Shown: one piece after another, positions 3,058 to 14,559 of the stretch
Position numbering within the stretch: position 1 is the stretch's first letter
Layout: the number at the start of each line of letters is the position of its first letter
NCBI GenBank assembly: GCA_005792145.1
Contig: SXSS01000113.1
Location: 1-41,299 of the forward strand
Reading direction: 5' to 3'
From: Planctomycetia bacterium
GTDB taxonomy: Bacteria; Planctomycetota; Phycisphaerae; Phycisphaerales; SM1A02
Length of the DNA stretch: 41,299 nt
Made by a program: the position numbers and the translations under genes
The notes under the pieces: model-generated
Seen by the model: only the letters and a program-made list of their open reading frames with translations
What the model was told of the DNA's origin: nothing
Database searches by the model: none

Positions 3058-5151
3058 ATGTCGACTCGCACAGCCAAGAAATTACTGATCATTGGCTGGG
3101 ACGCTGCGGATTGGATCATCATTGACCGACTCTTTGCGCACGGGAAAATGCCCCATTTGCGAAAACTCGTCGACGGCGGAGTGCGCGCCGACCTTTCAAC
3201 TCTTGACCCCAAACTTTCGCCGCTGCTCTGGTCGTCGATCGCTACTGGCAAGACAGCGGACAAGCACGGCATCTTGAACTTTGTCGAGCCCAACCCCGCC
3301 GGCGATGGACTTCGCATCAGCGCGAGCACCACGCGTCGAACGAAGGCGCTCTGGAACATCATCACACAGTCACAAATGAAAGTCAATGTTGTTTCGTGGT
3401 ACGCATCGCATCCTGCGGAAGCGATCGCCGGTGTGTGTGTGACAAATCTTTTCCAAGAAGGCGAACCCACCCAAATTGGCGCGCCGTGGCCGATGCAAAG
3501 TGGCACAGTCCATCCGCAGTCGTGGGAAGAAAATTTGGCTACGCAAAGGACCGCGGCGAAAGACATCACGAAGGCGCAACTCCTGTCGATGATTCCTCTC
3601 CTGCATGAAATCAAACCAAAGGATGATCGTCCAAGAACGCTCGCCAAGCAACTTGCTCGAATGTCTTCTGTGCATCACGCCGCGTCATCCATCTTGAAAG
3701 AGTCGCAGCAGTGGGATTGCACGATGGTCTTTTATGAAACCATCGACACCATTGGACATCACTTTATGCAGTTTCTGCCGCCGAAAATGCGGCATATTTC
3801 CAAAGATGATCTTCGGCTGTACGGCGATGTGATGTTGAAGGTCTATGAGCATCACGATCGTACGCTTGGAGAATTGTTACAGCACGCTGGGCCAGACACA
3901 ACGGTGATCTTGCTCTCGGATCATGGTTTTCACTCTGGAGATCAGCGACCCGTGATCACCCAGATAAATCCCGATGATCGTGCGGCAGTCGAAGCGAGTT
4001 GGCACCGACCATACGGTGTGCTTGTGATGTCGGGCGCTGGCATCAAGCGCGGCGAAAGAATTTCTGCGGCAAGTTTGTTGGATATCACACCGACTGCGCT
4101 TGCGTTGTTGGGATTGCCTGTCGGCGAAGATATGGATGGACGCGTGCTTGCGGAGGCGTTCGCGCAGCCATACGCATTGAAGACGATCGAGAGTTGGGAT
4201 GCAAAGTCTGGCGAAGCAGGAATGCATCCAGATGATCTGCGTAATAACCCATTCGAGTCGCAGGATGCGCTCAATCAACTGATCGACTTGGGATATATGC
4301 CAGCGCTTGGTGATGACATCAAAGCGCGGCTCGATCTTGTTCGCCGCGAAAGCGATTTCAATCTTGCCGTTGTGTATATGTCGACAGGACGCGCGCAATT
4401 AGCGGAGCCTTTGTTTGCCCAACTTTTACAGCAGAATCCAGAGGAAAGCCGCTTCGCGACAAATCTCGCGAACTGCCAATTCACTGCGCGCAATTTTGCT
4501 GGATGCGCGCAGACTGCGTCGGAATATCTTCGGAAGCATCCAACGAATGCGGAGGCGGGACTTCTGCTGACTGCTTCATTTGCCAATCTTGGAAAGATCG
4601 ACGAAGCAAAGCAGTTGTTGAAACGACTTGAACGCGACTTCGCTGACCGCCAGGATCTTGTGCTGTCGCTTGGCGATATGAACGGAATTCTTGGTCAGTG
4701 GGATGATGCCGCTCGACTCTATCGCCGCAGCGAAAAAGATGATCCACAGAATGTAAGAGTGCAACTCGCACTCGCTCGAATGTCGCTTGCGACTGCGAAG
4801 TGGGACGATGCGGTCGAGTTTTGTTTGAACGCATGCGAGATTCGACAGATCACACCTGAAGCGCATTTTGCCCTTGGAATTGCGCTTGCGTGGCTTGGCG
4901 ATTTTCCTCACGCAATACAATCTTTCGACAATGCATTGCACTTACAGCCTGGCTTGATCGAAGCGCACCGATTTATGGTGATCTTGAGCGAACTTGCCGC
5001 CAACAAATTGAAGGCGCAGAAGCATCGAGATGAGGTCAAGCGATTGCTTGGAACTTTGAAAACGATTGATGGAGTGATTGAACAGCCGCCACCAGAATCT
5101 TGGGGACCGCACGCGTGGGCGAAAAGTATCGGGCGCACGATTGCGGAGTGA
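3058..5151 (+). CDS. Alkaline-phosphatase-superfamily phosphodiesterase fused to TPR repeats
   Basis: A 697-residue two-part protein. The N-terminal part (about 8-375) is a type I phosphodiesterase/nucleotide pyrophosphatase domain. It has the metal aspartate in IIGWDAADW, the nucleophile region SPLLWSSIATG followed by KHGILNF, a second metal-ligand block ETIDTIGHHF and the late block LSDHGFHSGD. The C-terminal part (about 420-680) is a run of tetratricopeptide repeats, probably for protein contacts. The substrate is unknown; family members hydrolyse phosphodiesters or move phospho-groups on lipids and glycans. No signal peptide is visible, so it is probably cytoplasmic. I chose ATG 3058 over GTG 3052 because AGGA at 3045-3048 is 9 bases from it. 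It is convergent with the sulfotransferase, 29 bases apart. Confidence 0.88.
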   Translation: MSTRTAKKLLIIGWDAADWIIIDRLFAHGKMPHLRKLVDGGVRADLSTLDPKLSPLLWSSIATGKTADKHGILNFVEPNPAGDGLRISASTTRRTKALWNIITQSQMKVNVVSWYASHPAEAIAGVCVTNLFQEGEPTQIGAPWPMQSGTVHPQSWEENLATQRTAAKDITKAQLLSMIPLLHEIKPKDDRPRTLAKQLARMSSVHHAASSILKESQQWDCTMVFYETIDTIGHHFMQFLPPKMRHISKDDLRLYGDVMLKVYEHHDRTLGELLQHAGPDTTVILLSDHGFHSGDQRPVITQINPDDRAAVEASWHRPYGVLVMSGAGIKRGERISAASLLDITPTALALLGLPVGEDMDGRVLAEAFAQPYALKTIESWDAKSGEAGMHPDDLRNNPFESQDALNQLIDLGYMPALGDDIKARLDLVRRESDFNLAVVYMSTGRAQLAEPLFAQLLQQNPEESRFATNLANCQFTARNFAGCAQTASEYLRKHPTNAEAGLLLTASFANLGKIDEAKQLLKRLERDFADRQDLVLSLGDMNGILGQWDDAARLYRRSEKDDPQNVRVQLALARMSLATAKWDDAVEFCLNACEIRQITPEAHFALGIALAWLGDFPHAIQSFDNALHLQPGLIEAHRFMVILSELAANKLKAQKHRDEVKRLLGTLKTIDGVIEQPPPESWGPHAWAKSIGRTIAE

Positions 5152-5180
5152 GTTGCGTCAAATTCTCTGTCAACTGCAAA

Positions 5181-5756
5181 TTATGACTTGTTTCGGTGCA
5201 GCGAGGGATCGACTGCTTTGACCATCGCCGATTCATCAAGCGTGCCGCCAAGAAATGCGTTGATCGATTTCGCTTGTTGAGCGGCGTTGGCGATGAAGTC
5301 CGCGTGATCCAATTGCAAGACTTGAAAGTTGGAACGCGCAGCGAGCCAAGATTCGATTGCCTTCAGTTGGCCTTCAAACAATGCGATCATCCGTTCTTGC
5401 GGTATCGCAGCACCCTTGCGACCACTTCGCTCGAGCATCACTGCCTGCGATCGGACAACCTCACTCAAATTTCGGCGCATAAAAATGACGCGATATTCGC
5501 GGTCGGTCGGCAATTCCATCAAGAGCAGATGGATGATCTTCACTGCTTTTCCTGTGGCGTCATCCAACCACGACTTGTCTGTTTTCAGTTGTTTGACTCG
5601 CTCGAATTCCAGATATCCGTGTGGATTATCCGCGTCGGCGGTGCGGATTGCGTCAGTCATCACGGACATTCCACCGGCGTGCAACATTTGCATCGCCATA
5701 CTTGTTCCCGAGCGCGGGAGACCAGAGACGATGACGATTGGTGGGCGTGTGGTCAT
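5181..5756 (-). CDS. Sulfotransferase family protein
   Basis: A 191-residue protein with the PAPS 5'-phosphosulfate loop VSGLPRSGTS at residues 10-19 and the 3'-phosphate-binding region FMRRNLSEVVRSQ (about 92-104). This identifies a PAPS-dependent sulfotransferase-like fold. It is shorter than typical sulfotransferases (250-300 residues) and ends at an Asp/His-rich tail, but no frameshift is visible. The acceptor is unknown. It has no Shine-Dalgarno site; a TAGACT hexamer lies 10 bases before the ATG. Its neighbour on the opposite strand is the phosphodiesterase/TPR protein. Confidence 0.85.
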   Translation of the reverse strand: MTTRPPIVIVSGLPRSGTSMAMQMLHAGGMSVMTDAIRTADADNPHGYLEFERVKQLKTDKSWLDDATGKAVKIIHLLLMELPTDREYRVIFMRRNLSEVVRSQAVMLERSGRKGAAIPQERMIALFEGQLKAIESWLAARSNFQVLQLDHADFIANAAQQAKSINAFLGGTLDESAMVKAVDPSLHRNKS

Positions 5757-5838
5757 TGGTTTGTGAAGTCTAACGGTTGGCGATTCGTGGGCACTTGCAA
5801 CGCGACTGAAATGCGGAGTCTGGCACGAACAAATTCAG

Positions 5839-5922
5839 AATGATTTATGCGAGCGCCGCGGGACGCATGTATGTGCTCGCACGAAGACGGAATGATTTGT
5901 GCGAGCGCCGCGGGACGAATGT
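5839..5922. repeat. 32-base direct repeat, two copies
   Basis: Two copies at 5839-5870 and 5891-5922 (start to start 52 bases) agree at 30 of 32 positions. Both contain the core GCGAGCGCCGCGGGACG. The second copy can fold with GGCGCTC just downstream into a nested hairpin. No open frame uses it convincingly. Confidence 0.85.
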
Positions 5923-6207
5923 CCTGGCGCTCAAACATGCTGCGCCTCGCCTACGCGGACTCCGGCTCGGCTTGCAAACTCGCGCAGGACATGCCTCCCG
6001 ACGGCGCACACGCGAAACGATGTTCGTTTTCGCAGCTGTGTGTTTGGCTCGAATCTGTTTGCGTCTCCAGCCGTTGGAAAGTTCTCTCGGGCGAGTTCCG
6101 CAGGCGGCCGACGGCGCTTGTGAATAAATTTCGCAAATTGGATCGTGTCGGTCGCCGAGGACTGTTTGAGCCCCGAGAGGACTTTTCACGGCTGATCACT
6201 TATGCGT

Positions 6208-6264
6208 TTCCGTGGCTGATTCCGTGGCTGATTCCGTGGCTGTTTCCGTGGCTGATTCCGTGGC
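6208..6264. repeat. 12-base tandem repeat abutting the arnT stop codon
   Basis: Almost five head-to-tail copies of TTCCGTGGCTGA with one substitution in the third copy. The array ends two bases before the arnT stop codon (6267-6269), so it lies directly in the 3' untranslated end of the arn operon transcript. Confidence 0.9.
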
Positions 6265-6266
6265 GC

Positions 6267-7952
6267 TCACTTCGCTTGTTTCTCTCCCCACGACACAATC
6301 GCCATATCGCCCCGAACATCATTCGTCGTTGGCGCCGGAATTCCAGGCGTTGCAACCAATGCTGCCGCATCATGCGCAGAGGTCACGACTGCAATACTCC
6401 CCGCTGTCGAAGATCGAATCCGCGCGATCATTTCATCGCGCGTCACAAGCCTCGCATCATCTTGAGGCAAATCCAACTCGTTATCAAATTCGCTTGCATA
6501 ACCAAAGATCAGCGTGTCGCGTCGACCAGTCACCCATGTGACGCAGTGACCCAACTGCGCGGTGGAATAAAGCAGCGAACATTCACGCAGAACCTTCTTG
6601 TTTGCTTCCAGCGCACGCATCGGAATCTGAGTCTGCAAAACATATCCATCAGGAAACAGAAAGGGAATCGCGGCAAGAAGTGCGACCGGCGCAGTCGCGG
6701 TACGCATCAACCAAGTGGTTGCGTCCGCCGCGCGCCAACTCCAGCGATCCAATTCAGCCCAAAGCAGAAGGACCAAGGCAATCACAATCCAGTGCAGAGT
6801 TGGACTTGTCGTCCAGATCACAGGTACGCCCAGCCATTCAGTTCCCGTAAAAATTGCGGCAATCGCGCCAAGTGCCAGCACACGCAATATCCAGCGACCG
6901 ATGCGACGAACGATGATCGGTTCCATGATCAGTTGTTCGTGTGCGGTGACCAAACCAAGCGTCACCAACACAGCAATTGGCACAAAGAGTGGCGCAATAT
7001 ACGAAGGAACCTTGCCTGCGCTTGTTGAAAGCAAAATCAGAGGCGCAATGATCCACGCGATGGCGAAGCGCGCGCCACTGCGCATGTTGGCTCCCTTCGC
7101 CAGAGACAACCCACGAATCGCGCGCGACCATGTCAACGTCCACATCACCCCACCAACTGGCAGCAACACGATCAAGAACCACCAAGGCTCGCCGTGTTGG
7201 TTTGAATCTGGATTCGCAAATCGTCGGAAGTGTTCGACGACAATAAAATATTCCCAGAAGCCAGGTTCAGATCGGTGCAGCAATACTGCGATTGGCGCGA
7301 TAATCACCGATGCAGCGGCAAGCGCAATCCACGGCAAACGCAGAATATCCAACCAACGGCGTTCCCAAGCAAGAAATGCCACCGCTGCAACGGCGGGAAT
7401 TGCAAATCCAAGAAGTCCCTTCGTCAAAAATGCGAATCCCGATGCTGCGCCAGCAAGTGCAAGCCAACCAATTCGCGCGCGCCCAATCGTTGTGCAGGCG
7501 GCATAAAAAGAAATCATGCAAAGTGCGATCCACGCGCTGAACATCGAATCAAGATTCGCCACCGAACCCATAATCAATGGCCCAATCGTCGTCAATTGAA
7601 CGATGAACGCGAGTGGCCCCAGCGCGCGGCGGCCCGTGATGCGCACCGCGATCAACCATGCGGCGAGCGCGGAAAGTCCCGCAGCGATTGCACTGGGCAG
7701 CCGAATTGCGAATGCGTTTTCGCCGAAGAGTTGAATGCTTGCGGCGATCATCCAATATCCCATCGGCGGTTTTTCGTAATAATGAAATCCCGCCATACGC
7801 AGCGCAAACCATTCCCCGCTCTCGACCATTTCTGCTGCGATGATTCCATAACGAGGCTCGTCGGGTTGGATGATTGGTCGTACGCCAAGCACAAGGACGC
7901 TGACGATCAGATAGACCACGACAGACCAGATCGCTTGGCGTTTCAGTGACAT
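6267..7952 (-). CDS. arnT: ArnT-like lipid A aminoarabinose transferase
   Basis: A 561-residue integral membrane glycosyltransferase of the GT-C/PMT class, close to the usual ArnT length of about 550. The first periplasmic loop carries PDEPRYGIIAAEM, with the catalytic D31-E32 pair, and further on FHYYEKPPMGYW, both typical of ArnT. About a dozen hydrophobic helices follow, then a soluble C-terminal domain. In the known pathway ArnT moves 4-amino-4-deoxy-L-arabinose from undecaprenyl phosphate to lipid A phosphates on the outer face of the inner membrane, lowering negative charge and binding of cationic peptides. It is the last gene of the operon, 12 bases after arnD. Context makes ArnT more likely than a generic GT39 family enzyme. 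Confidence 0.9.
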   Translation of the reverse strand: MSLKRQAIWSVVVYLIVSVLVLGVRPIIQPDEPRYGIIAAEMVESGEWFALRMAGFHYYEKPPMGYWMIAASIQLFGENAFAIRLPSAIAAGLSALAAWLIAVRITGRRALGPLAFIVQLTTIGPLIMGSVANLDSMFSAWIALCMISFYAACTTIGRARIGWLALAGAASGFAFLTKGLLGFAIPAVAAVAFLAWERRWLDILRLPWIALAAASVIIAPIAVLLHRSEPGFWEYFIVVEHFRRFANPDSNQHGEPWWFLIVLLPVGGVMWTLTWSRAIRGLSLAKGANMRSGARFAIAWIIAPLILLSTSAGKVPSYIAPLFVPIAVLVTLGLVTAHEQLIMEPIIVRRIGRWILRVLALGAIAAIFTGTEWLGVPVIWTTSPTLHWIVIALVLLLWAELDRWSWRAADATTWLMRTATAPVALLAAIPFLFPDGYVLQTQIPMRALEANKKVLRECSLLYSTAQLGHCVTWVTGRRDTLIFGYASEFDNELDLPQDDARLVTRDEMIARIRSSTAGSIAVVTSAHDAAALVATPGIPAPTTNDVRGDMAIVSWGEKQAK

Positions 7953-7964
7953 CGGGTATTGATC

Positions 7965-8873
7965 CTAACGGCGAAGTGAATCGCTCACGCACAACCATCC
8001 ATCGCGGCCTGCGACTCGTCCTTTGCTGATTGTCGCGGGTGCGGCGGCAGGTTGTCGGTCGAGCCAATCACAGAGTGGTTCAAACGTATGCCCCTTGGCA
8101 ATCGCTTGGTCGAGAAAACGCTCGAAGAGTTGCGACTTCGATCCACCTTCGCTCTCGGCGTGAATCGTCAACACGTGCGGTTGACCATCATCGATCCGCC
8201 GCAGCAGTTCCTGATTCCACGCTTCATCTGCGCCACTGCCGCGACCAACGCCTTCGTCATATGTTGGCAAGTCAACTGGAACTTGAGGCTGATTGATCGG
8301 TACGCCTGCGATGCGTGGCAAAAATGGCGCGGCAACTCCGCGACAATCACTGCGATATCGAAATGACTTTGATGATGGCAGTGACAAGACTCGATCGGTG
8401 CAACGCCAACCCGGACACGCCGCAGTTGTTGGCGTTCGTCCGATGATCGTTGCAAGCGCGTCAGTCGCGCGCGCGATCTGCGCGTCAAGTTCTGCATCGC
8501 CGAGCGAATCGATTCCCATTTGCCAAAGGTGATGATCCCACGCATGCACTCCCATTTCATGCCCTTCACGATCGGGCATTCGCAGCGTGTCCGCAAGTCG
8601 CTCACTAATGATTGGCCCTGGCCAAATCGTCCCTCGCAGAACAATGTCCCAACCATAAAGATTCGGCGCACCGGATCGAAGCATCTTGATCGCAAAACTC
8701 GGCCGCAGCAAACGCAGAATATGACGGCCCATGTTGTCGGGACCAAGCGTGACATACCACGTCGCACGAATGCCGCGCCGCTTCAGAATGCCAAGCAATC
8801 GTGGCACTCCATCGCGCGTGCCGCGAAATGTGTCCACATCAATACGCAGTCCAATGCTCACCGGTGCAAGCAT
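7965..8873 (-). CDS. arnD: ArnD-like undecaprenyl-phosphate-formamidoarabinose deformylase
   Basis: A 302-residue polysaccharide deacetylase (NodB fold) matching ArnD in length (about 296). The metal and catalytic acid motif is RIDVDTFRGT (D12, D14) and the metal histidines lie in MGVHAWDHHLW (H110, H114). The block ACPGWRCTDRVLSLPSSKSF is characteristic of ArnD. The enzyme removes the formyl group from undecaprenyl-phosphate-linked 4-formamido-arabinose before ArnT acts. The ATG at 8873 overlaps the arnA stop by one base (TGATG), implying translational coupling. An in-frame upstream extension is possible but lies inside arnA. Confidence 0.92.
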   Translation of the reverse strand: MLAPVSIGLRIDVDTFRGTRDGVPRLLGILKRRGIRATWYVTLGPDNMGRHILRLLRPSFAIKMLRSGAPNLYGWDIVLRGTIWPGPIISERLADTLRMPDREGHEMGVHAWDHHLWQMGIDSLGDAELDAQIARATDALATIIGRTPTTAACPGWRCTDRVLSLPSSKSFRYRSDCRGVAAPFLPRIAGVPINQPQVPVDLPTYDEGVGRGSGADEAWNQELLRRIDDGQPHVLTIHAESEGGSKSQLFERFLDQAIAKGHTFEPLCDWLDRQPAAAPATISKGRVAGRDGWLCVSDSLRR

Positions 8874-10906
8874 CAAGCGCGAACAGTCTTGGCAGCCTTC
8901 ATGGGTCGCGTCGAAGCGACTGCGGAAGGTGGCGTCAAACCATTTTCGCGTGCGTGTTGTTGCAAGAACCAATCAAGCGTTCGTTCAACGCTTGTCGCAG
9001 TGGCGATCTTGGGCGTCCAACCGATGATCGTCTGCGCATTGCGAATGCTCGGACGACGATGTTGGACATCTTCATAACCCGCGCCGTAATAGGCGGAACT
9101 TTCGATCTGTTGAAAGCCCGCGAATGGTGGATAGCAAGAACGAAGCGGATGGCGCTCGAACGATTCCACAAGCGACTCTGCGAGTTCTTTGATGCTTGCT
9201 TCGTTGTCTGGGTTTCCAATATTGAAGATGCGACCATCGCAGACCGCATTCTTGTTTTCGATGATTCGGAAAAGTCCTTCGATTCCTTCGTCAACATCGG
9301 TGAAGCAACGACGCTGCGTCCCGCCATCGACCAAAAGAATCGGCGTGCCTTCGACCAAATTCAATATCAGTTGCGTGATCGCACGCGAACTTCCGATGCG
9401 CGCGGAGTCAAGCGAGTCCAAACGCGGGCCGATCCAATTGAATGGTCTGAAGAGGCTGAACCGAAGACCGCGCTGCATTCCATATGCCCAAATGACGCGG
9501 TCCAGCAGTTGTTTGCTGGCGGAATAGATCCATCGTTGTCGATGGATTGGGCCGGTGACCAACGGGCTTGTCTCTTCGTCGAAGAGTTCGTCCGTGCACA
9601 TTCCATAGACCTCGGAAGTGCTTGGGAAGACCAGTCGCTTTCCATATCGAACGCAATCACGAATGACACGGAGATTTTCTTCGAAGTCCAATTCGAAGAC
9701 GCGCAGTGGATTGCGAACATATTCAATCGGAGTGGCGATGGCAACAAGTGGCAGAATCACATCGCACTTGCGAACGTGATATTCGACCCAGTCGCGATTG
9801 ATCGAAATATCCCCTTCGACAAAGTGGAATCGCGGATGCTGCATCAGGTCGCCGAGGTTCTCAGAATTGAGATCCATTCCATACACATCAAAGCCTTCGT
9901 CTTTCAAAATTCGCTCTGAAAGTTGACTGCCGATAAAACCATTCACGCCAAGAATGAGCACTGAAGTCCGCTTGCGCTTGCTTGCAGTTGCGCGAACGCC
10001 CAAGCGCATGCGTGGAAGGAGATTCATATCTTGCGCCAACTGCACGCCGGAACTCCACACGCCGTCGGGTCCCTGCCCTTCCTGAATTTCAAGCGCGCCT
10101 TGGCCACTTGCAATAACCAGCGGTGATGACGAAAGAATTTCGCCAGGCTGTCCACTTCCTTCGACAACACGCGATCGCCACACCATAATCTTGCGTGTTC
10201 CTGCGAATGTGAATGCGCCAGGCCAAGGATGTGTGACGGCTCTCACAAGATTGCGCAGTTCTTTCGCTGGCTTTGACCAATTCAATTGACCATCAGCCGG
10301 CGTTCGCTTGCCCATCACCGTTGCCTTCGTTTCATCTTGCGGGGTTCGTGGAGCTTTTCCAGACTTGATCAGCGGAATCACTTCCGCCAATATCGCCGCG
10401 GATTCCTTTGCCATTCGCGCAGTCAACGAACGCGCGTCATCATCCGCGCCGATGGCGACCTTGCGCTGAGCGATGATGTCGCCAGCATCGGACTTGTCCA
10501 CCATGTGATGAACCGTGACTCCTGTTTCACTTTCGCCATTGACCAAGACCCAGTTGATCGGAGCGCGTCCGCGATACTTTGGCAGAAGCGCCGAATGCAG
10601 ATTGATACAGCCTGCGGGAAAGAGCGCGCGAATCTTGGCACCCACCATATTGCGATAGTGAAATGACATCAACAATTCAGGCTTCATCGCACGAATGCGT
10701 TCGAGCCAAATCGGATGATCGATCTTGTCTGGTGCGTGAACCGGAATTCCATGTTCCGCGGCGATGCGCGCAACATTGGCATACCAGCCTCCTTCGGCGG
10801 GATCATCACGATGGGTGAAGACAGCGACAACATTCAAACCGCTGCGGATCGCCTCCTGCAAAGATGCGGCGCCAATTTCGTGGTAAGCAAGAACAACAGT
10901 TCGCAT
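8873..10906 (-). CDS. arnA: Bifunctional UDP-aminoarabinose formyltransferase / UDP-glucuronate decarboxylase
   Basis: A 677-residue protein with the two-domain layout of ArnA (660 residues in E. coli). The N-terminal formyltransferase (1-305) has the 10-formyl-THF site [13 protein letters not shown] with N102 and H104, and D140 in KSDAGD, at the same positions as in E. coli. The C-terminal SDR domain (about 314-655) has the NAD motif [14 protein letters not shown] (S431, E432), the YSASK pair Y461/K465, and [11 protein letters not shown] with the active-site arginine. The decarboxylase oxidises UDP-glucuronate to the 4-keto-pentose; the formyltransferase formylates the ArnB product. Start chosen at the ATG 7 bases after AGGAG. 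It begins 16 bases after arnC. Confidence 0.96.
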
Positions 10907-10922
10907 TGAAAACTCCTTTATG

Positions 10923-11933
10923 TCAACTCTCGCGCGCAACTCGCGCCATTGCAATTTTGGTCGAATGATATTCGCCAAGCGTTTCGCCAATAACCCGATC
11001 AACGATATATCTCGGACGCTCGCGCACATCGGCATGAATTCGCCCGATGTATTCACCCATCAATCCCAGCGCGATAAATTGTGCGCCGATGAAGAAGAAG
11101 GCAACAGCGAAAAGTGTGAAGACTCCATTTTCTGCCCATTGGGTTCCATAGACCAAACGCAAGACCAAGAGCAGTGCGCCGAATCCGATGGAAAGCACGG
11201 AGATTCCTGCGCCGATCCATGAGAGAATTCGAAGCGGCGCAGTTGTCATGCATGTCAAGAGATCGAACTGCAAATTGATCAGGTTCAAGACCGAATATTT
11301 ACTTGTGCCACGCGCGCGCTCCGCATGACCAACAGGAATCTCAGTGACGCGTTTGGCGAAGAGATTCGCAAGGACAGGAATGAACGTGTGCCGTTCGCGG
11401 CAACTCAACATCGCATCAACGACGCGGCGGCGATAGGCGCGAAGCATACATCCATAGTCGCGCAATTTCACGCCGGTTGATTTTCGCACCATCATATTGA
11501 TGATGCCACTGAATACTTTTCGAAAGAGCGCGTCTTGGCGATCTTGTCGAATCGAACCAACAACATCGAAGCCTTCGTCAATCTTCGCAACTAGATTTCC
11601 GATTTCTTCTGGAGGATTCTGCAAGTCTGCATCGAGGGTGATCAAGATGTCGCCCTGCGCCGCGCCGAAGCCACAGAGGATCGCGTTGTGCTGACCATAA
11701 TTTCGATTCAGCAAGAGCGCTTTGATTTCACCAGGATTATCTCGCGCAGCTTCCGCAAGCATTTCAGATGAACCGTCACGACTTCCATCATCGACCAGAA
11801 TGAGTTCCCACGAACGACCCGCACGACCAAGCGCGCGACAGGCTTTCAAGGTTCGCTCGAGCAATTCAGGAATGTTGTCCTTCTCGTTGTAGACCGGAAT
11901 CACGACTGTGACTGATGTTTTCTCCGCGCTCAT
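10923..11933 (-). CDS. arnC: Undecaprenyl-phosphate 4-deoxy-4-formamido-L-arabinose transferase
   Basis: A 336-residue family 2 glycosyltransferase with a C-terminal membrane anchor. The GT-A core has VVIPVYNE (10-17), the nucleotide-binding VDDGSRD (47-53) and the DAD metal motif at 101-103 followed by LQNPPEE. Two transmembrane helices lie at about 234-262 and 271-297. ArnC transfers the formylated sugar from UDP to undecaprenyl phosphate at the inner leaflet. DPM-like or GtrB-like bactoprenol glucosyltransferases share this layout, but position between arnB and arnA supports ArnC. Its ATG overlaps the arnB stop (ATGA). Confidence 0.93.
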
Positions 11934-13111
11934 CGAATGCCTCCACTGACGGTCGCGCGCGCGCCTGCGAGTGTCTCTTTGATTGCGTCAATCACATCAT
12001 TCGCATCTTTGTCGGTCATATCTGGGAAACATGGAATTGTGCAAATACGAGCGGAATTCCACTCGGTATTAGGAAGTTTCCCCATCCATTCTGGCCGATT
12101 TTCGCGATACCACTTTTGACCATGCGACGCCAAGAAGTGAATCCCTGTGCCGATATTGCGCGCCTTGAGTCCTTCCATAAAAACATTGCGATCCATACCG
12201 CAAATTTTTTCGTCGACGCGCACAACAAAGAGGTGACGCGCGTGTCGATGCGACCATGTTGGATCTGTCATCGGCAAGATGCCATCAACTTCAGCGAGAC
12301 GACTTCGATAGAGTTGTGTGATTGCTTCGCGTCGTTCGATGAACGAATCCAACCGTGGCATCTGACGAACTGCAAGCACCGCGTTCATATCCGCCATGTT
12401 CTGTTTATAGCCCGGCTCTTGCACTTCAGCTTGCGGCGAACGACCTTGTTGACGGCGATCGTTCGCATCGACGGCCAAACCGTGAAAGCGAAGACGCCGC
12501 ACTCGATTGGCGAGTTCTGTGTCATTTGTCGTCAGCACGCCACCTTCACCAGATGTGATGTTCTTGATTGGATGCAGGGAAAAAATCGCGGGATCGCCGC
12601 CGCCAATTTCGCGGCCCTTGTATTGAGTTCCAATTGCGTGCGCGGCATCTTCCAAGATTGGCACGCCACGCTTTGCGCAGAGTGCGCGAATCGCATCGAT
12701 ATCCACTGGAGCGCCGGCGTAATGCACGGGTATGACCAATCGCGTTCGAGGGGTGATTGCGGCTTCGATCGCATCCGCGGATGCGAGCAAAGTATTGCGG
12801 TCGACATCGACGAAAATATTTCGCGCGCCGCGCATTTCGATCATGTTTGGAGTCGAGACCCAAGTCATGGATGGGCCGATGACTTCATCGCCTGGTCCGA
12901 TTCCCATCGCTTGCAGGGTGAGGTGCATCAGAGCTGTGCCGGATGTTGCGGCAATGGCTTCTTTGGCGCCGGTGCGCTCGGCGATCATTTGTTCAAGTTC
13001 GGTGACGCGCGGGCCGGTTGTGATCCATCCGCTGCGCAGGACATCGCCAATTGCGGCGATGTCTTCTTCTGAAATTGAGGGGCGGCAAAATGGCAGAAAG
13101 GTGGATCGCAT
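11930..13111 (-). CDS. arnB: UDP-4-amino-4-deoxy-L-arabinose aminotransferase
   Basis: A 393-residue PLP enzyme of the DegT/DnrJ/EryC1 family. It shows [10 protein letters not shown] (25-34), the cofactor aspartate in [10 protein letters not shown] (D155) and the Schiff-base lysine in [14 protein letters not shown] (K183). ArnB transaminates the 4-keto sugar nucleotide made by the ArnA decarboxylase, using glutamate. It is the first gene of the operon. No Shine-Dalgarno site precedes the ATG; a TATAGT box at 13121-13126 ends 9 bases before it, so the transcript may be nearly leaderless. On sequence alone another sugar aminotransferase is possible; the operon decides. Confidence 0.95.
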
Positions 13112-13120
13112 CAGATGGAC

Positions 13121-13126
13121 ACTATA
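13121..13126 (-). promoter_or_regulatory. Probable -10 box of the arn operon
   Basis: TATAGT read on the minus strand, 9 bases before the arnB ATG. The -35 region is poor (TTAGAA at 17 bases). If used, transcription starts within a few bases of the start codon. No regulator-binding repeat is obvious around it. Confidence 0.4.
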
Positions 13127-13139
13127 GACGGAAATGGCT

Positions 13140-13549
13140 GAAATTCTAAACGCGGGCGAGTCGGAGCGGGCGAGTCACGAGTTCGACGGGCGCACTCGGT
13201 GCGCACGGCGAACGCGGGCGAGCCGGAGCGGGCGGCGCAAGCTTGCTTGCAGCCGAACGCGATCGGCGAGAACGCAGGCGAGCGGCTGCGGGCGAGAACG
13301 CGATCGGCGAGAACGCGGGCGAGAACGCGGGATTTGATGACTCAGCGCGCAGCGCTGAGGCACCATAGCACGCGCGGGCGAGCCGCTGCGGGCGAGTCAC
13401 GAGTTCGACGGGCGCACTCGGTGCGCACCGGAGAACGAGTGGCGAGAACGCAGGCGAGAACGCAACACGTCGGCGAAGCCGACGTGAGTAGACCGACCCC
13501 GTAGCGCCGAATCGGAAGGCGCTCGGGCCTTCCGATTCGAAGCGAGGAG
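13140..13549. repeat. GC-rich mosaic of direct and inverted repeats between arnB and tRNA-Pro
   Basis: This segment is much richer in GC than the genes around it and is built from recurring GCGGGCGAG and GAACGC words. It holds a 41-base exact direct repeat (13166-13206 and 13388-13428), a 21-base direct repeat (13255-13275 and 13296-13316), and several perfect hairpins: CTCAGCGC/GCGCTGAG at 13341-13359, CACGTCGGC/GCCGACGTG at 13466-13486, and one at 13508-13539. No open frame here looks like a protein. It resembles intergenic mosaic elements. Confidence 0.8.
13508..13539 (-). terminator. Strong hairpin downstream of tRNA-Pro
   Basis: A perfect 13-bp stem (13508-13520 with 13527-13539) with a 6-base loop, starting 10 bases beyond the 3' end of tRNA-Pro. 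No T-tract follows on the minus strand, so it may be a processing or Rho-assisted end rather than a classical intrinsic terminator. Confidence 0.55.
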
Positions 13550-13624
13550 TCGGGCTAGCGGGATTTGAACCCACGACCTTTTGACCCCCAGTCAAACGCT
13601 CTAGCCAAGCTGAGCTATAGCCCG
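13550..13624 (-). tRNA. tRNA-Pro(GGG)
   Basis: A 75-base cloverleaf on the minus strand. The acceptor stem CGGGCTA/TAGCCCG has 7 bp and the discriminator is A. The D-arm is AGCTCAGCTTGGCTAGAGCG. The anticodon arm is TTTGA-CTGGGGG-TCAAA, with anticodon GGG at 13587-13589. The T-arm contains GGTTCAAATCC. CCA is not encoded. Confidence 0.95.
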
Positions 13625-13649
13625 TTGAATCAAAGGATTCACTACATCT

Positions 13650-13688
13650 GTCGTGCGCGACGAACTTATTTCGCTCGACGCGCACGAC
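13650..13688 (-). terminator. Hairpin between tRNA-Ser and tRNA-Pro
   Basis: A perfect 10-bp stem (13650-13659 with 13679-13688) encloses a smaller CGAA/TTCG pairing. It lies 17 bases beyond the tRNA-Ser 3' end, so it may process or partly terminate the tRNA-Ser transcript. No T-run follows. Confidence 0.45.
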
Positions 13689-13704
13689 ACGCGAATCACC
13701 TGAA

Positions 13705-13791
13705 CGGACAGGGGGAGATTCGAACTCCCGATACGGTTGCCCGTATACAGCATTTCCAATGCTGCTCCTTCAACCGCTCGGACACCTGTCC
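13705..13791 (-). tRNA. tRNA-Ser(GGA)
   Basis: An 87-base class II tRNA on the minus strand. The acceptor stem GGACAGG/CCTGTCC has 7 bp with discriminator G. The D-arm contains TCCGAGCGGTTGAAGGA. The anticodon arm is CAGCA-TTGGAAA-TGCTG, with anticodon GGA at 13755-13757. A long variable arm ATACGGGCAACCGTAT and a GTTCGAATC T-loop complete it. CCA is not encoded. Confidence 0.96.
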
Positions 13792-13801
13792 AGGGACGGC
13801 T

Positions 13802-13829
13802 AGTCTAGCGTGATGAGCATTCCCGACAA
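13802..13829 (-). promoter_or_regulatory. Promoter of tRNA-Ser, overlapping the truB start
   Basis: Read on the minus strand: TTGTCG (13824-13829), a 16-base spacer, then TAGACT (13802-13807), 10 bases before the tRNA 5' end. It overlaps the first codons of truB on the other strand, so the two divergent promoters share DNA. Confidence 0.6.
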
Positions 13830-14559
13830 CACCGAGCCAATTCTCGAGGGCATTCTCCTCATCGACAAGCCGGAAGGTCCCACAAGTATGCGAGCGGTCG
13901 AGCGGGTTCGTCGCGCCGCAGGCGGGGTTCGTTGTGGTCACGCTGGAACGCTCGATCCACTTGCAACAGGCCTTTTAGTAATCGCTTTGGGACGTTTCAC
14001 TCGCACGCTCGCAGAACTTATGGGCGGTGATAAAAAATATGAGACGGTGATCGACCTCTCCGCATTCACGGCAACCGACGATCGCGAAGGCGCGATGATC
14101 AACGTTCCAATCGATCGTCCTCCAACAGAATCCGAAATTGAAAGCGCGTTGACCGCATTCCGCGGATCCATCATGCAAACTCCTCCCGCGTTCAGCGCCG
14201 TCAAAATCGCGGGTCGTCGCTCATACGACATCGCGCGTCGTGCGATGAAACAATCTTCTGCGAACATCGAATCAGAGTCATCACCTGAACCCCCTGCGAG
14301 TCCCGTCTCACGTCCCGCTCAAGTGCACGCGCTTGCGATGCGAGATTTTGCGTGGCCACTCGTCACGCTGGACATTCACTGTGCCAAAGGTTTTTATGTT
14401 CGCAGTCTCGCTCGCGATCTTGGCCGAGCGCTCGGCACTGGCGGACATTGTCTTTCGATTCGGCGCACATGGAGCGCACCATTTTCCATCGACAACGCGA
14501 TTGCGCTGGACTCACTCCCCAATCGTTTGGGGTTGAGTGACCTCACCCGCGTTCCTTGA
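13813..14559 (+). CDS. truB: tRNA pseudouridine(55) synthase
   Basis: A 248-residue TruB. The catalytic aspartate is D48 in CGHAGTLDPLATGLL, followed by KKYETVIDL and TPPAFSAVKIAGRRSYDIAR, all TruB signatures. FYVRSLARDLGRAL is the conserved C-terminal motif. It converts U55 to pseudouridine in the T-loop of tRNAs, which fits its place beside two tRNA genes. It is shorter than E. coli TruB (314) because the C-terminal PUA region is largely missing. GTG 13810 is an alternative start; ATG 13813 has TAGTCT exactly 6 bases before it and no Shine-Dalgarno, suggesting a leaderless mRNA. Its 3' end overlaps lspA by 48 bases tail to tail. Confidence 0.95.
   Translation: MSIPDNTEPILEGILLIDKPEGPTSMRAVERVRRAAGGVRCGHAGTLDPLATGLLVIALGRFTRTLAELMGGDKKYETVIDLSAFTATDDREGAMINVPIDRPPTESEIESALTAFRGSIMQTPPAFSAVKIAGRRSYDIARRAMKQSSANIESESSPEPPASPVSRPAQVHALAMRDFAWPLVTLDIHCAKGFYVRSLARDLGRALGTGGHCLSIRRTWSAPFSIDNAIALDSLPNRLGLSDLTRVP

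Follow-up and report, generated by a model that had tools for sequence, protein, structure and literature searches.

Results

An arn operon in a planctomycete genome

The window analysed here, a 41,299-nucleotide stretch of contig SXSS01000113.1, comes from a planctomycete draft genome (G000, of genus g1 in the Phycisphaerales; 2.52 Mb in 152 contigs, completeness 90%, contamination 0.91%). On its minus strand, from position 13111 to 6267, lie five open reading frames (ORFs) in the order arnB-arnC-arnA-arnD-arnT, the genes with which proteobacteria make the positively charged sugar 4-amino-4-deoxy-L-arabinose (aminoarabinose, L-Ara4N) and attach it to lipid A. An earlier sequence-only reading of this DNA had described five such same-strand genes at 6267-13111, joined by an ATGA overlap (arnB/arnC), 16 bases (arnC/arnA), a TGATG overlap (arnA/arnD) and 12 bases (arnD/arnT), and the ORF coordinates agree with it exactly:

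11930-13111, minus strand: arnB, UDP-4-keto-L-arabinose (UDP-L-Ara4O) aminotransferase, a pyridoxal phosphate (PLP) enzyme; 393 amino acids (aa); NF008658, 566 bits; Pfam DegT_DnrJ_EryC1
10923-11933, minus strand: arnC, undecaprenyl-phosphate 4-deoxy-4-formamido-L-arabinose (L-Ara4FN) transferase of glycosyltransferase family 2 (GT2); 336 aa; NF007986, 475 bits
8873-10906, minus strand: arnA, bifunctional UDP-glucuronate (UDP-GlcA) oxidative decarboxylase and UDP-L-Ara4N formyltransferase; 677 aa; NF005998, 1036 bits
7965-8873, minus strand: arnD, 4-deoxy-4-formamido-L-arabinose-phosphoundecaprenol deformylase; 302 aa; NF011923, 331 bits
6267-7952, minus strand: arnT, lipid A L-Ara4N transferase, a membrane enzyme of the glycosyltransferase C (GT-C) type; 561 aa; NF009784, 309 bits

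For each of the five proteins the top NCBIfam model was the corresponding Arn equivalog (the sole model matched by ArnD and ArnT), and ArnA clears the equivalog cut-off (1036 bits against 777). Searched by sequence against the PDB, ArnB, ArnC and ArnT each matched solved structures of their namesakes best (ArnB 8sng and 1mdo; ArnC 9bhc, 8vxh and 9hwj; ArnT 5ezm), and so did ArnD, which aligned with 8t0j (ArnD; E 2e-72) through stretches that include RIDVDT and HEMGVHAWDHH. ArnB has a lysine, K183, at what we take to be the position of the PLP lysine. The formyltransferase and decarboxylase domains of ArnA lie within a single ORF according to Pfam, and N102, H104 and D140, which had been named as its active site from the sequence alone, are present and invariant in an 11-row alignment, as are T430, S431, E432, Y461, K465 and R617, whose positions presumably follow the E. 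coli numbering with a shift of -2. All five reading frames are intact. Because five adjacent genes with matching families stand in canonical order, chance is excluded as the source of the resemblance. The GC content of the operon, 0.541, compares with 0.521 for the remainder of the window, and GC at third codon positions (GC3) resembles that of the neighbouring genes.

The fold and residues of ArnT

Identity to the E. coli K-12 proteins is 56% for ArnB, 60% for ArnC, 59% for ArnA and 47% for ArnD, and falls to 27% for ArnT, the weakest case among the five. The activity of ArnT from Burkholderia cenocepacia requires Y43, K69, R254 and E493 (available portion of PMC5377068); Y35, K61, R244 and E488 of the window protein align with these residues and are invariant in 34 of 34 alignment rows. 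Among three distant GT-C outgroup pieces, only that of locus L035 covers the last site (E488), where it has V, the two others being partial. An AlphaFold2 model of the window ArnT, made from a 22-row alignment, reached a predicted local distance difference test score (pLDDT) of 88.6, and its closest crystal structures were 5f15 (Z 35.0 over 527 residues) and 5ezm (Z 34.3 over 523), against Z 20.8 for the next fold family; a family absent from this list of fold matches is not thereby excluded. Foldseek returned the same two structures (E 3.8e-22 and 1.7e-21, respectively), with the next match at 3.5e-05. The fold is thus shared with ArnT of Cupriavidus metallidurans (5EZM/5F15; root-mean-square deviation 3.3 over the 527 residues) at an identity of 19%, and the modelled product of the window arnT has the ArnT fold, not another GT-C fold.

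Ancestry and distribution

An ArnA scan of named genomes gave, among the best 80 of 583 relatives, planctomycete or metagenome-assembled genome (MAG) records at 96% to 74% identity, followed by Nau_6 and Arabian9 Phycisphaerales at 61-63% and by enterobacteria at 57-60%. The Phycisphaerales clade that holds the window has 12 rows in the tree of ArnA (55 rows; SH-like approximate likelihood ratio test, SH-aLRT, 99), 10 in that of ArnT (34 rows; support 100/99) and 12 in that of concatenated ArnB+C+D (43 rows; SH-aLRT 98), and the three trees agree within this clade; those of ArnA and ArnB+C+D are quick trees with SH-aLRT support only. All three place the genes among Arn proteins rather than with unrelated sugar-modification operons, a point that the sequence-only reading had proposed to settle with trees of ArnA and ArnT. 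The gammaproteobacterial rows of the ArnA tree form a separate 13-row clade with Azonexus and one Desulfovibrio (SH-aLRT 98). Neither the trees nor the GC content support a recent transfer from enterobacteria. In the ArnB+C+D tree the gammaproteobacterial clade is a neighbour of the Phycisphaerales clade (with G355; SH-aLRT 90), so that, judging from the sequences, an ancient transfer between the two, in either direction, may have taken place. Two MAG records named Singulisphaera sp. GP187, L053 (CAMAXY010000001.1) and L054 (CAMBOV010000003.1), group with the Phycisphaerales in all three trees, and the name is probably wrong.

Of 392 genomes sampled across the phylum, 15 have an ArnA that scores above the cut-off, one of them being G345 with two stops between the ArnA domains. 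Within the window's family (181 genomes, 45 genera) full ArnA was found in 60 genomes and 11 genera, that is, g298 (6/6), g296 (8/8), g6 (13/16), g297 (6/9), g1 (13/19), g3 (5/14), g295 (2/2), g5 (2/3), g9 (2/3), g7 (2/3) and g302 (1/1). The operon therefore looks long established in the family rather than freshly borrowed. Only one of 21 sampled genomes from other families of the same order, G278, is arn-positive, and it lies outside the window's clade. Family f49 has ArnA as well, in five genomes, and one of the five matches Candidatus Brocadia sp. WS118; the f49 and WS118 loci (L032-L035, L038, L084) have arnB-C-A(-D), and the only proteins nearby in the place of ArnT are distant GT-C proteins with 22-28% identity to it.

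Comparison with known arn operons

The order of the genes had been called enterobacterial in the sequence-only reading. It is indeed the B-C-A-D-T order of E. coli, but it is not specially enterobacterial, since it also occurs in Syntrophus, Desulfobulbaceae, other 'deltaproteobacterial' MAGs and other planctomycetes; as the common order of the arn operon it gives no sign of enterobacterial origin. All five genes in this order were present in 29 of 33 related loci (four genomes are represented twice among the 33), including L041, where arnD follows only after a gap of 3.2 kb. The exceptions are three g298 loci that show no arnT after arnD and L182, which ends after arnA.

The arnBCADTEF operon of E. 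coli K-12 shares with the window the fused bifunctional ArnA as well as the order, whereas the window lacks arnE and arnF, belongs to a separate tree clade and is flanked by tRNA-Ser, tRNA-Pro and truB instead of ais and pmrD. The Desulfobulbaceae, Syntrophus and other 'deltaproteobacterial' loci (L101, L103, L104, L106) also have B-C-A-D-T and a fused ArnA; a single ArnE-like gene adjoins the operon or lies close to it in L101, L103 and L106, the window having none, and the contig of L104 ends soon after arnT. Other Phycisphaerales (L053-L058, L061, L062 and family genomes) carry the same operon, of the same clade, with ArnA identities from 96% to 61%. In other planctomycetes (G052, G018, G208, G118 and G129, also G345 and G374) the same enzymes are adjacent, although the G129 locus shows no arnB, and formyltransferase and decarboxylase are separate genes, unlike the single fused gene of the window. 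The ArnA of G345 (L045) is interrupted by two stops at residues 308-309 and that of G374 (L046) is in separate pieces; both are probably split ArnA. Decay was considered for G345, but its stops fall between the two domains, which makes a split ArnA more likely.

Lipid A genes and precursor supply

The window's genome encodes LpxK, LpxC and WaaA, plus a cluster of adjacent lpxD, lpxC/fabZ and lpxA genes, and LpxA, LpxC, LpxD and LpxK each clear an NCBIfam cut-off. It also encodes one UDP-glucose-dehydrogenase-type protein (TIGR03026). A lack of lpx genes would have refuted the sequence-only reading, which had also proposed a search for ugd; the lpx genes and a gene of the ugd type were both found, and with them the acceptor and the precursor of the pathway are present. 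Lipid A pathways in planctomycetes are cited by PMC3422733, and the word 'arabinose' does not occur in the available portion of that text.

Missing ArnE/ArnF and candidate flippases

The ORFs of the window and of loci from L032 upward were searched with hidden Markov models (HMMs) for ArnE and ArnF, which matched gammaproteobacterial loci, L127, L051 (a planctomycete) and L092, L101, L103 and L106 ('deltaproteobacterial' MAGs). They gave no match among the ORFs of the window or in loci L040, L041, L043, L044, L053-L058, L061 and L062. An ArnE-type alignment searched against 26 arn-positive genomes matched G129 at 6e-46, a genome that itself supplied a row of the alignment, and, independently, G169 at 4e-17; any further match was at 6e-9 or weaker, and 11 genomes, including G000, G295, G364, G510, G517 and G278, gave nothing at E 0.01. 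Thus arnE and arnF are missing from the operon, as had been claimed, and none was found by a search of the 90% complete genome, whose only two EamA proteins are both larger. L041 has additional ORFs in the interval from arnA to arnD and beyond arnT; they matched no Pfam family and have almost no hydrophobic segments.

In an all-against-all comparison of the 33 loci, the commonest neighbour was a membrane protein of PF03706, annotated as 'flippase-like' by TIGR00374, which is encoded on the same strand upstream of arnB in nine loci (these include L058 and L180, taken as one genome). Examples are:

L058, 4548-5798: PF03706/TIGR00374 gene upstream of arnB
L061, 4537-5772: PF03706/TIGR00374 gene upstream of arnB
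L171, 4635-5846: PF03706/TIGR00374 gene upstream of arnB
L186, 4571-5881: PF03706/TIGR00374 gene upstream of arnB

Eight of the copies are full (376-436 aa) and one is cut by a contig end, and in the eight loci measured the gene ends 26-74 bases before the arnB match. Strong matches (E 2.2e-25 or better) occur in 24 of the 181 family genomes, of which 23 belong to the arn-positive genera g5, g296, g297 and g298 and one, G460, has no ArnA. When a partial match in G525 is included, 21 of the 25 share a contig with arnA, always on its strand and 1.6-2.4 kb upstream of it, a distance equal to the space of arnB and arnC; three more are on contigs other than that of arnA, and one is in the genome without ArnA. 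Weaker matches are widespread, reaching 115 of the 181 genomes overall, ArnA-less ones included. As the flippase of the window's own genome PF03706 has to be set aside: in contrast to these four genera, G000 has no such gene, with no match at E 0.001.

A further candidate in G000 is its single GtrA protein (723 aa), in which GtrA is fused to a segment of weak similarity to ArnT (E 4e-7 against the E. coli protein). It is encoded on contig C40 (L217), in the following arrangement:

4765-6084: glycosyltransferase family 9 (GT9) heptosyltransferase
6088-8259: GtrA/GT-C fusion
11169-12845: second ArnT

The fusion adjoins the heptosyltransferase gene and lies about 3 kb from the second ArnT, a protein of 558 aa that is 49% identical to the window ArnT and keeps all eleven residues checked. 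The arrangement recurs in G409; stretches of G360 and G498 retain the GT9-GtrA pair and lack the second ArnT. GtrA proteins are thought to flip sugars linked to C55 phosphate (C55-P), while ArnE and ArnF are classed among the small multidrug resistance (SMR) transporters (available portion of PMC7389260). GtrA fails as a general flippase of the family: it was matched in 64 genomes, and these do not include arn-positive members of g6, for example G490 (97% complete).

Genomic neighbourhood

Two tRNA genes lie upstream of arnB:

13704-13792: tRNA-Ser GGA
13549-13624: tRNA-Pro GGG

Both, together with the neighbours on the lspA side, occupy the same place in four further genomes of the window's genus (G400, G402, G409, G411). 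A tRNA-borne island was considered, but a repeat search of 5000-14000 (seed 12, length at least 16) found no direct repeat linking the tRNA side to the arnT side, and an attachment site is unsupported. Gain or loss of the operon within the genus was examined by seeking an empty site next to truB in relatives that lack full ArnA. The contigs of G403, G405 and G406 end near truB on the arn side, and truB was not found in G401 and G414, so an assembly gap may account for the absence of ArnA from these five genomes.

GC-rich repeats of 24-56 bases lie between tRNA-Pro and arnB (13149-13458), and a 12-base tandem repeat lies just beyond the arnT stop (6208-6264). A sigma-70-like TTTAGA-18-TATAGT (13150-13121, minus strand) ends 9 bases before the arnB start, at a frequency expected by chance (6 found, 3.8 expected). 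Downstream of arnT is a short sulfotransferase-like protein (5181-5756, minus strand) with PRSGT near its start; L054 also has such a protein after arnT, and in L175, L178 and L179 members of its cluster take that place.

Discussion

Our results suggest that the five genes very probably constitute a complete and long-established L-Ara4N pathway, whose product is placed on a phosphate of lipid A or on the adjacent inner core. With lpx and waaA genes and a UDP-glucose-dehydrogenase-type gene in the same genome, L-Ara4N-modified lipid A (or inner lipopolysaccharide) is the best reading of the operon. The C-terminal domain of ArnA would oxidise and decarboxylate UDP-glucuronate supplied by the UDP-glucose-dehydrogenase-type enzyme, and ArnB would transaminate the resulting keto-pentose to UDP-L-Ara4N. 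The N-terminal domain of ArnA would formylate this nucleotide sugar, ArnC would transfer the formylated sugar to undecaprenyl phosphate (UndP), and ArnD would remove the formyl group from the carrier-linked sugar. Once the carrier had been turned to the periplasmic face, by a flippase other than ArnE/ArnF, ArnT could transfer L-Ara4N to the lipid A phosphate or the adjacent inner core, so that the negative charge of the outer leaflet would fall and cells might be protected from cationic peptides.

Several observations weigh against this proposal. ArnB (566 bits for a cut-off of 631), ArnC (475/529), ArnD (331/382) and ArnT (309/567) are below the strict NCBI equivalog cut-offs, which are naming rules and do not speak to mechanism. 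WaaA clears its Pfam cut-off and falls short of the NCBI equivalog ones, and Ugd is assigned at the subfamily level only, TIGR03026 being passed and the TuaD equivalog reaching 495 bits, below its cut-off of 700. Since no ArnE/ArnF-type protein was found in the 90% complete genome, one step of the pathway is left without an assigned enzyme. Finally, 121 of the 181 family genomes yielded no full ArnA, seven of these 121 holding ArnA fragments, and the trait is therefore dispensable.

The acceptor is the point at which another outcome is easiest to envisage. L-Ara4N could be made as proposed and serve mainly to decorate the 3-deoxy-D-manno-oct-2-ulosonic acid (Kdo)/heptose core or another envelope glycan, by way of ArnT (and the second ArnT). 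The location of the latter, about 5 kb from the GT9 heptosyltransferase gene and with its checked residues intact, would suit a core acceptor, and such an acceptor has been postulated, rather than directly shown, for B. cenocepacia (available portion of PMC5377068). We regard this as unlikely, given that the window ArnT retains all tested residues and that the layout of the operon matches that of bacteria in which the acceptor is lipid A, although the choice of acceptor is not readable from sequence. It is much less credible that the pathway is cut short, with a carrier-linked sugar that goes unused for want of a flippase and an operon that is idle or has some other role. The lack of any ArnE/ArnF-like match even at E 0.01 in 11 of the 26 genomes would fit such a state, but the five frames are intact, active-site residues are kept among relatives that differ by some 20-40% in ArnA, and the clade has other membrane proteins able, in principle, to flip the carrier. 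The least probable alternative, which we consider scarcely tenable, is that the operon was recently imported from proteobacteria or lies on a contaminating contig of the bin. Its patchy distribution (15 of 392 genomes in the phylum, 60 of 181 in the family) and the tRNA genes and GC-rich repeats at its flanks might be expected of an import; against this stand the Phycisphaerales clade recovered in three trees, the neighbours shared with four further genomes of the genus, GC and GC3 values that fit those of neighbouring genes and the low contamination of the bin.

Returning to the L-Ara4N pathway ending on lipid A or the adjacent inner core, the missing step could have been taken over by unrelated membrane proteins. 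Our tentative proposal, which we hold to be possible but more doubtful than the pathway itself, is that ArnE/ArnF have been replaced in the window's family by the PF03706/TIGR00374 protein encoded upstream of arnB in g5, g296, g297 and g298, that the GtrA domain of the GtrA/GT-C fusion perhaps fills this role in the window's genus, and that the two ArnTs serve two acceptors, lipid A and the core. Either protein may then flip UndP-L-Ara4N.

The chemistry of the pathway is textbook, and what makes the finding of interest is its host and its lack of the usual flippase. Literature searches pairing planctomycetes with Arn or lipid A, whose coverage is partial, yielded no report of Arn genes in planctomycetes, which lends weak support to the novelty of the finding. 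In a phylum with a long-disputed outer membrane, the operon leads us to predict a lipid A or core that is made cationic by L-Ara4N, and it shows a trait best known from pathogens to be shared and inherited in a family of uncultured environmental bacteria. The question of the flippase also becomes testable: 11 genera of the family retain the pathway, the search of the window's genome turned up no ArnE/ArnF, and in sister genera a named candidate gene adjoins arnB.

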